Source: Anaerolineales bacterium
Lineage (GTDB): Bacteria > Chloroflexota > Anaerolineae > Anaerolineales > UBA4823
Reading direction: 5' to 3'
NCBI GenBank assembly: GCA_003105035.1
Contig: PQAL01000005.1
Location: 62,001 to 126,000, forward strand
Length of the DNA stretch: 64,000 nucleotides
In this document: positions 45,949-49,477 of the stretch, piece by piece
How positions within the stretch are numbered: the first letter of the stretch is position 1
Layout: each line of letters opens with the position of its first letter
Notes under the pieces: model-generated
Told to the model about the DNA's origin: nothing
Seen by the model: the letters and a program-made list of their open reading frames with translations, nothing else
Database searches by the model: none
Made by a program: the position numbers and the translations under genes

Positions 45949-46019
45949 AGGCGTCGACGGGATTTGAACCCGTGATCAGGGTTTTGCAGACCCTTGCCTT
46001 GCCACTTGGCCACGACGCC
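45949..46019 (-). tRNA. tRNA-Cys (GCA)
   Basis: The 7-bp acceptor GGCGTCG/CGACGCC, the T-loop TTCAAAT and the anticodon loop CTGCAAA (anticodon GCA) are all present. The discriminator base is U73, as usual for tRNA-Cys. CCA is not encoded. It is the last of three tRNAs in one operon. Confidence 0.95.
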
Positions 46020-46104
46020 ATTTCAATTTATATTGAAAATTGCTGATTGGTGATTTTGATGGCAAATTTCAATAAAAATCAACAACCAGCAACCTTCGTT
46101 GAGA

Positions 46105-46176
<72 letters not shown>

Positions 46177-46199
46177 AGGGCTGACCATTCGGTCAGTAG

Positions 46200-46272
46200 T
46201 GCCGAGAGTCAGGATCGAACTGACGACCCCACAATTTTCAGTCGTGTGCTCTACCTACTGAGCTATCTCGGC
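46200..46272 (-). tRNA. tRNA-Phe (GAA)
   Basis: The acceptor GCCGAGA/TCTCGGC, the T-loop TTCGATC and the anticodon loop CTGAAAA (anticodon GAA) are present. The discriminator is A73. It is the first tRNA of the operon. Confidence 0.95.
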
Positions 46273-46327: not shown

Positions 46328-46399
46328 GCATCACCCTCCCACCCGCCTCTTATTGGAGATTAACTTGCCTTTTCTTCAAATTTATGTCATAATAATTAT

Positions 46400-46436
46400 G
46401 CGAACATCTGGGTGCCCCCCTCACCCAGGTGTTCGC
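46400..46436. other. 15-bp inverted repeat with C-rich loop
   Basis: The arms at 46400-46414 and 46422-46436 pair over 15 positions with one G-T pair and a CCCCCCT loop. It stands between two divergent promoters and has no U-tract on either side. It could be an operator or the end of an unrecognised small RNA. Confidence 0.4.
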
Positions 46437-46499
46437 ACTTTAAACCACCAGGAATTCCACTTTTCCTCAATTTTGTAGCAAAATTCACTATCATTTGGC

Positions 46500-46527
46500 T
46501 TGACTTATTCATCCATGTCTCTATAAT
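46500..46527 (+). promoter_or_regulatory. promoter of the tandem riboswitch transcript
   Basis: TTGACT (46500-46505) and a perfect TATAAT (46522-46527) are spaced by 16 bp. The predicted start near 46534 is a few bases before the first aptamer. Confidence 0.8.
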
Positions 46528-46540
46528 TAAAGTGCAACGC

Positions 46541-46625
46541 TCCGAAAAGGCTCGTCAGGTGAAAGTCTGATGCGCAGAGTCATGGGTCTACATCCATTTC
46601 CCCTGGTGGACACGATTCCAGACCG
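46541..46625 (+). ncRNA. first, degenerate GEMM-like aptamer
   Basis: This unit has the GAAA-capped stem (GTCAGGTGAAAGTCTGAT), the GGGTCTA junction and a closing CCAGACCG like the next two units. The core motifs are changed: GGCTCGTC instead of GGCAAAC, and GCGCAGAG instead of GACGCAAAG. It may be a decayed copy or have altered ligand preference. Confidence 0.55.
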
Positions 46626-46708
46626 CCGACAATAGCAAACTAAGTGAAAACTTAGGACGCAAAGTACTGGGTCTAAAACCGGTTCTGCCGGTCATGATTG
46701 CCAGACCT
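46626..46708 (+). ncRNA. cyclic di-GMP-I (GEMM) riboswitch aptamer, second unit
   Basis: The GEMM hallmarks are in order: AGCAAACTAAG, a GAAA loop, CTTAGGACGCAAAG, GGGTCTAAAA, CCGGTT/CCGGTC with a short loop, then ATGATTGCCAGACC. The match to the Vibrio Vc2-type consensus is clear by eye. The G before CAAAC that contacts the ligand is kept. Confidence 0.82.
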
Positions 46709-46794
46709 CCGAACAGGCAAAACCAGTGAAAACTGGCGACGCAAAGTTATGGGTCTAAAATCGGTTTTTCCGGTCATGACTGCCAGACTACCGA
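46709..46794 (+). ncRNA. cyclic di-GMP-I (GEMM) riboswitch aptamer, third unit
   Basis: The same core as the second unit: AGGCAAAACCAG (one extra A), a GAAA loop, CTGGCGACGCAAAG, GGGTCTAAAA, a TCCGGT stem and ATGACTGCCAGACT. It ends 25 nt before an intrinsic terminator, as expected for a transcriptional switch. Confidence 0.82.
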
Positions 46795-46818
46795 AGAGCG
46801 TCGCACATTTTAACCACC

Positions 46819-46843
46819 ATGAGCAGTCACCTGCTCATTTTTT
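46819..46843 (+). terminator. intrinsic terminator, probable expression platform
   Basis: ATGAGCAG (46819-46826) pairs with CTGCTCAT (46831-46838) around TCAC and runs into TTTTTT. It follows the third aptamer directly. Confidence 0.85.
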
Positions 46844-47042
46844 CTTCCAGTCGGTTAATTGCGAATTTATTACGGACTTCGATGCAAGGATGAATGATCC
46901 AGTTTTGACAGGATTGTTGTGCTCAGCTTATTATTTTATATAATATAACTGAGAGTAGGAGAGGCTGTTATATGTCACTCTTCCTGCGGTAAAACCATCG
47001 ATAAAATATCAGTACTGCTTCATTGGCATGGAGGGTTCAACA
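46844..47042 (+). promoter_or_regulatory. spacer between riboswitch terminator and oxidoreductase gene
   Basis: No gene is supported here. TTGACA (46905-46910) with TATTAT (46929-46934), 18 bp apart, could be a second promoter. A 17-codon frame at 46890 has GCAAGG before it but nothing else to support it. Confidence 0.35.
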
Positions 47043-47975
47043 ATGGATGGAGGAAGTAAACGTAAGCTCACTTTTGGGATTATGCTGGGACCGTTCCCCC
47101 CATGGGAGAAGGTCGTAGGCTGGGCGAAGCTGGTCGAAAGCCTTGGGCTCGATAAGCTCTGGCTACCCGATCATTATGTCAATCCAGACGATAAGGATAT
47201 GGATTGGTTTGACTGCTGGTGTACGCTTTCAGCCCTGGCGACCCAAACCGATAAGATCAAGCTTGGGACCTTGGTCTCAAGCATGACTCTGCGTAATCCA
47301 GCAGTCCTGGCCCACATGTCCATGGCTGCAGACCACATCTCTGCCGGGCGCTTCGAGTTAGGGGTTGGTGCAGCTGGCACCCGAAAATGCCACGAGATGA
47401 CCGGTGTACTGCGTTGGGAGCCGAAAGAACGTTCGGAACGCTACCGTGAATTTGTTGAAATCCTGTATTCGATGCTCAATAATGAGGTAACCACCTATCC
47501 AGGGAACTATTACAATATCCAGGGAGCAGTGATGCATCCGGGATTCATCTCCAGTCCCCATCCAACGCTTAGCGTCGCTGCACACGGACCAAAGGCTCTC
47601 CGCCTGGCCGCTACATATGGTGATGCCTGGAACACCCTTGGACCGTTAAAAGAGCTGACGCCCAGGCAAAGCAGCGATGAGATCCATCAGAGTTATCAAA
47701 TGCTCCGTGAGTTTGCCGCTGCTGCTGGTCGTGATCCGGATAACTTCGATCGGACAATCCTATTCGGGTGGACCTGCGAACGCCCTTGTGCCTCAGTAGA
47801 TGCCTTTTATGACGTCATCAGTCGTTATGCAGAAGCAGGCATCAATGATTTCTGCTTTATTTACGCCCCAGGGGTCGACCTGTGGAAAGATCAATCCATC
47901 AATAATGAGGACCTGCTATACAGGATTGCACTGGAAGCCATCCCTGCCATACGGAGCAGTAGTCTGAATAAATAA
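47043..47975 (+). CDS. LLM-class (luciferase-like) flavin or F420-dependent oxidoreductase
   Basis: A TIM-barrel oxidoreductase of 310 residues. Family features are the opening TFGIMLGPFPPWEKVVGWAK, DKLWLPDHY near 40, IKLGTLVSSMTLRNPAVLA near 78 and GRFELGVGAAGTR near 105. Bacterial-luciferase and F420 members share this fold, so the cofactor is not settled. The ATG at 47043 has GGAGGG 7 nt upstream; an ATG at 47028 is less likely. It is the first gene after the c-di-GMP riboswitches and may be under their control. The substrate is unknown. Confidence 0.85.
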   Translation: MDGGSKRKLTFGIMLGPFPPWEKVVGWAKLVESLGLDKLWLPDHYVNPDDKDMDWFDCWCTLSALATQTDKIKLGTLVSSMTLRNPAVLAHMSMAADHISAGRFELGVGAAGTRKCHEMTGVLRWEPKERSERYREFVEILYSMLNNEVTTYPGNYYNIQGAVMHPGFISSPHPTLSVAAHGPKALRLAATYGDAWNTLGPLKELTPRQSSDEIHQSYQMLREFAAAAGRDPDNFDRTILFGWTCERPCASVDAFYDVISRYAEAGINDFCFIYAPGVDLWKDQSINNEDLLYRIALEAIPAIRSSSLNK

Positions 47976-49404: not shown

Positions 49405-49477
49405 TGCCCCCAGCCAGATTCGAACTGGCGTTTTAGCCTTGAAAGGGCTGCGTCCTGGTCCCCTAGACGATGGGGGC
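49405..49477 (-). tRNA. tRNA-Glu (TTC)
   Basis: The acceptor GCCCCCA/TGGGGGC, the T-arm GCCAG-TTCGAAT-CTGGC and the anticodon loop CTTTCAA (anticodon TTC) are intact. The anticodon stem has one C-A mismatch at its base. The discriminator is A73. CCA is not encoded. Confidence 0.92.

Follow-up and report, generated by a model that had tools for sequence, protein, structure and literature searches.

The window examined here is a 64,000-nt stretch of contig PQAL01000005.1 from an Anaerolineales bacterium. The feature under study is an array of c-di-GMP-I (GEMM-I) units situated between divergent tRNA genes and a gene for an LLM-class oxidoreductase. Three tRNA genes (45949–46272) occupy the minus strand and point away from the array, and a fourth is located at 49405–49477. 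A preliminary description of the locus had listed three GEMM units in a row behind a consensus promoter and ahead of an intrinsic terminator, all of which were recovered within 46500–46845. Absent from that description were a helix that closes the array (P0) and a second promoter, past the terminator and ahead of the LLM gene. The features are as follows:

46500–46527, plus strand: predicted sigma-70 promoter of the array (TTGACT-16-TATAAT, 11/12 consensus matches)
46532–46542, plus strand: 5′ strand of P0, GUGC-A-ACGCUC (MFE fold, duplex energy and covariation)
46539–46622, plus strand: unit 1, a diverged c-di-GMP-I-like domain (RF01051, 19.3 bits; fold)
46624–46713, plus strand: unit 2, a canonical c-di-GMP-I aptamer (RF01051, 63.4 bits; pocket motifs, GAAA tetraloop)
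46706–46795, plus strand: unit 3, a canonical c-di-GMP-I aptamer (RF01051, 72.8 bits; pocket motifs, GAAA tetraloop)
46796–46806, plus strand: 3′ strand of P0, GAGCGU-C-GCAC (MFE fold, duplex energy and covariation)
46819–46845, plus strand: intrinsic terminator, a hairpin (46819–46838) plus a T run, self-contained and without an anti-terminator partner
46905–46934, plus strand: second sigma-70-like promoter, ahead of the LLM gene and outside the RNA (TTGACA-18-TATTAT, 11/12)
47028–47975, plus strand: LLM gene, luciferase-like monooxygenase (PF00296, 156 bits)

If the array is transcribed from its predicted promoter, as we infer, the transcript would start at about position 46533. The fold of the whole transcript has an energy of -107 kcal/mol (z -4.5 relative to shuffles). 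The LLM gene is co-directional with the array and lies 232 nt beyond the closing helix, with the terminator in between. Two further elements were noted at the locus. At 46399–46440, in the interval from the tRNA genes to the array promoter, is a near-perfect 15-bp inverted repeat (GCGAACATCTGGGTG / CACCCAGGTGTTCGC), of which two partial copies occur elsewhere in the genome (88–94% identity over 33–34 bases). A short reading frame at 46698–46943 overlaps the structured RNA and was set aside.

The three units are not equivalent. The Infernal search with RF01051 that had been proposed for them places units 2 and 3 well above the Rfam gathering score of 35 bits, even when unit 2 is trimmed for its overlap with unit 3 (50.0 bits), whereas unit 1 falls below it. 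Units 2 and 3 also possess the pocket motifs GCAAA and GACGCAAAG together with a GNRA loop in P2, in agreement with the cores ascribed to them beforehand, a combination that unit 1 lacks. The earlier claim of three tandem GEMM-type units thus stands for the arrangement and for units 2 and 3, but not for unit 1, which is degenerate. In unit 1, P2 pairs continuously (GC-U-CGUCAG.../CUGAUG-C-GC) through the site where an internal loop would otherwise form the ligand pocket, and GCGCAGAG stands at the core position that GACGCAAAG occupies in units 2 and 3. Because the pocket loop is paired and the core altered, unit 1 is unlikely to bind ligand, and its candidacy as a working third sensor was rejected on the closed P2. 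Units 2 and 3, in which the pocket is present, should bind c-di-GMP. A cGAMP-type variant was also considered, and the contact base before CAAA is G in both units; judged by the Vc2 structure, c-di-GMP is thus the expected ligand. Synthesis of c-di-GMP in the host is plausible, since its genome encodes five GGDEF domains. An RF01051 search of the same 4.45-Mb genome yielded no c-di-GMP-I matches besides the three units. Among related arrays, unit 3 frequently has a U-rich P3 loop (A1 alignment columns 276–292), and in the window this loop includes UUUUU (46764–46768).

In the MFE fold, a 10-bp P0 helix extends from the predicted 5′ end of the transcript and encloses all three units as one junction. 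The duplex formed by its flanks has an energy of -17.4 kcal/mol, and about 1 in 2000 shuffles is equally good.

Related arrays were sought at several taxonomic depths. A nucleotide search of 61 related genomes returned similar DNA in 27. Searching the family and order with RF01051 revealed close-packed triples in several genomes. A search pattern composed of the last unit and the following CCGAAGRR matched 54 of 400 genomes of the order Anaerolineales, at one site each. Removal of single riboswitches and contig-edge cases, and addition of two arrays by inspection, gave a set of 48 complete closed arrays in these 400 genomes, usually one per genome and spanning several families of the order. 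Forty-seven of them have three units, the sole exception being the two-unit array L104, and in 42 of the 48 the strands of P0 are 250–272 nt apart. Five closed arrays (L077 [rc 200–915], L078, L079, L080 and L102) carry long insertions of ~130–500 nt, mostly inside aptamer P3 arms, and that of L077 is purine-rich and structured in appearance. The pattern matched none of 359 Anaerolineae genomes outside the order. A stricter pattern run against 84,980 species gave seven matches, all in Chloroflexi records, one of which (L093) is a single riboswitch. A similarity search of plasmids and a pattern scan of viral contigs produced no match. Ordinary-looking c-di-GMP-I tandem pairs, with a spacing of ~170–181 nt unlike that of the closed triples, were seen in G006, G018, G024, G029, G032, G034 and G061.

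Comparison of the arrays bears directly on P0. RNAalifold predicted the helix unprompted on 41 aligned triples. In the same alignment, 90.7% of P0 cells are paired versus 27–54% in slid controls, the covariation score is 0.325 versus 0.167 in shuffles, and five of six pairs show two-sided changes, with pair-type changes that include GC to AU, CG to UA, and UA to CG, AU or GC. When P0 partners were permuted among the 48 arrays, the observed pairing was reached in 0 of 5000 trials. Acceptance of an array needed at least four closing pairs, so that the innermost four are paired by selection; this rule alone does not account for their type changes or for the pairing of the outer ones. As a separate observation, a short closing-like helix (GCGATC with GATCGT) also lies outside the aptamer in the single c-di-GMP-I riboswitches L031, L035 and L037.

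The loss of the unit 1 pocket could be taken to mean that the array is a non-functional, decayed relic of tandem riboswitches. This is very improbable: the compensatory changes in the closing helix largely contradict it, units 2 and 3 are canonical, and the architecture is kept across several families of the order.

Conservation differs from unit to unit. Strict pocket motifs occur in unit 1 of 27, unit 2 of 31 and unit 3 of 38 of the 41 aligned arrays, and the P2 GNRA loop persists in 18, 19 and 38, respectively. The search pattern included the pocket core of unit 3, whose conservation is for this reason partly ascertained, but not its GNRA loop. The unit 1 core is broken in the window and in L081, L101 and L117–L119, while in the largest family the middle unit of L140, the sole array with that unit listed, scores 19.8 bits. 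Arrays with lost pockets still keep their domain number and spacing, a pattern that favors a scaffold role over a sink whose worth lies purely in its number of pockets. In the largest family, the P3 arm of unit 1 (A1 columns 66–89) presents a nearly invariant hexaloop, GAACUG, on a GCU/AGC stem, unlike the corresponding arms of units 2 and 3, which vary freely. It is possible that this hexaloop is a contact site for a partner or for another arm.

The preliminary description had envisaged control of the LLM gene by a switch with a steeper or logic-gated response, i.e., a tandem riboswitch in which cooperative binding of c-di-GMP controls termination ahead of that gene. The position and orientation of the LLM gene, with a terminator on the way to it, fit such an arrangement, and triple-tandem c-di-GMP-I riboswitches that control genes do exist in Bacillus thuringiensis (PMC4759541). 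The terminator itself, however, has no predicted switching partner. In the window, its complementarity to the 3′ portion of the aptamer is not significant (duplex z -0.93, p 0.15), and there is no expression platform or terminator between the units, which abut, the only terminator being that after unit 3. The same holds among the closed arrays, where anti-terminator complementarity reaches p<0.05 in 2 of 40 cases (mean z 0.06). In single c-di-GMP-I riboswitches of the same order, by comparison, the terminator's left arm shows complementarity to the aptamer end in 16 of 19 cases at p<0.05 (mean z -2.9). This test detects base-pairing competition with the terminator, and other switching mechanisms would escape it. 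An automated search found a strong hairpin and a T-rich tail 3′ of 40 of the 48 arrays; these hairpins are self-contained and mostly start 8–25 nt past the closing helix. Directly 5′ of the closing helix, a -10-like hexamer is present in 38 of the 48 arrays versus 4% of random upstream 16-mers.

Neighboring genes likewise speak against the LLM gene as the regulated one, as had been supposed. It has a predicted promoter of its own, and in none of the relatives examined does it adjoin the array. Among the homologous arrays, no conserved co-directional target gene was found; neighbors vary and are often convergent. At least nine arrays are followed by a convergent gene: purA, DnaJ (two), a LytR-type gene, an ABC permease, a membrane protein, nitroreductase (two) and a subtilase. 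For these and for the other neighbors, names were assigned mostly by reading the sequences, with Pfam backing for LLM only. A possible tenth case, L077, was left out as a short piece at the end of a contig. Elsewhere, the array in G006 is followed by a thiamin pyrophosphokinase gene behind its own TPP riboswitch, and YqeY stands behind the array in G024, of the same genus. In L108, a TPP riboswitch (1741–1852) comes after the closed array, ahead of a likely thiamin pyrophosphokinase gene. In one family, ruvB lies downstream of ~21 arrays, and a cis role may exist in this lineage, although those that were read have a -10-like element just ahead of the ruvB start. For the window, control of the LLM gene in cis is improbable, and the LLM gene is judged to be unrelated to the RNA. 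The evidence from promoter, terminator and neighbors led to the rejection of a longer LLM mRNA leader.

What comparison of the sequences establishes is a three-domain closed architecture with a covarying closing helix, lacking both anti-terminator complementarity and a fixed downstream gene. The best explanation, to which a probability of roughly 0.74 is assigned, is that the array is a conserved, free-standing, c-di-GMP-binding ncRNA that would act in trans, and not a cis-riboswitch of the LLM gene. As proposed, the RNA gene would be ~310 nt long and would have a promoter and a constitutive terminator of its own, and the 5′ end of the RNA would pair with the stretch right after unit 3, so that all three GEMM domains are enclosed in a single multi-helix junction. 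Units 2 and 3 would bind c-di-GMP, and unit 1 would be a "ghost" domain that keeps its shape and position but has lost its pocket. Across the relatives, two or three working c-di-GMP aptamers per closed RNA are most likely. Action in trans is the most likely mode because there is no switchable terminator and the neighbors are variable or convergent; the RNA might hold part of the c-di-GMP pool, or might refold on binding so as to act on a partner. The choice between a c-di-GMP store and ligand-gated action on a partner is about even.

For the first of these, a pure sink or store, the precedent is the proposal made for merRNA of Bdellovibrio, in which a free-standing transcript with high-affinity aptamers was argued to serve this purpose (PMC3627812). 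By analogy, the lack of a target gene would fit such a function here. There is just one copy per genome, however, and pockets have been lost repeatedly with the scaffold retained; a pure sink is possible but less likely than not. For the second, the domains would be scaffold arms of an RNA that is gated by its ligand and has a specific partner, either protein or RNA, the junction being set by c-di-GMP mainly at unit 3. Retention of domain number and size despite pocket loss, which a pure sink would not need, points this way, as do the far tighter constraint on unit 3 than on units 1 and 2 and the conservation of the unit 1 GAACUG loop through most of one family. The candidate partner is as yet hypothetical, though, the loop may be conserved through recent common descent, and unit 3 served to find the arrays. 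This reading, too, is possible but less likely than not. That the arrays represent a new class of trans-acting signaling RNA, with three GEMM arms around a junction that the two ends of the RNA close and with c-di-GMP, mainly at the third arm, refolding the RNA toward a partner, is a conjecture with the odds somewhat against it.

The proposed free-standing RNA resembles several known systems in part. Glycine riboswitches with a ghost aptamer retain a ligand-binding aptamer beside a degenerate partner domain, as does the closed array, but they belong to another aptamer class, have two domains, and possess a cis expression platform. Membership in the c-di-GMP-I family (RF01051) is evident from the scores, pocket motifs and GAAA tetraloops of units 2 and 3, whereas the sub-threshold unit 1 and the absence of the family's cis-regulatory expression platform set the array apart. 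In B. thuringiensis, Bc3-5 comprises three independent c-di-GMP-I riboswitches, each with its own terminator, in the 5′-UTR of cspABCDE (PMC4759541). It shares with the closed array three c-di-GMP-I aptamers in tandem, but here the units abut within one closing helix and are followed by a single terminator without a switching partner. A survey of tandem c-di-GMP-I riboswitches lists 347 doublets and 12 triplets, with several expression platforms and pseudo-cooperative behavior (PMC9481103). These are arrays of the same aptamer class, and no mention of an enclosing helix or a stand-alone array was seen in that survey; some of its 12 triplets could be closed-array members. Triplets of c-di-GMP-I are also recorded in Bacillota in a survey of contiguous riboswitches (PMC12452182). 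The merRNA of Bdellovibrio bacteriovorus, which contains a c-di-GMP riboswitch and was not found outside Bdellovibrio by its authors (PMC3627812), is a non-coding transcript with a c-di-GMP aptamer and no target gene, as the closed array would be. Compared by description, the closed array differs in its three domains, closing helix and order-wide distribution. A search of the literature, mostly outside subscription journals and for that reason weak evidence, turned up no publication that describes an enclosing helix or a stand-alone closed array.

Nearly all known c-di-GMP-I aptamers are, to our knowledge, treated as leaders of the next gene. Since it is conserved across many species, the closed array would be a better test case for the merRNA idea, and its ghost domains would let scaffold and binding roles be separated experimentally. 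If the proposed reading is true, the array would be a free second-messenger receptor built of RNA, rather than an mRNA leader. With three aptamers in one closed RNA, and neither a switch nor a fixed target, bacteria would also use such aptamers as free receptors or buffers of c-di-GMP.
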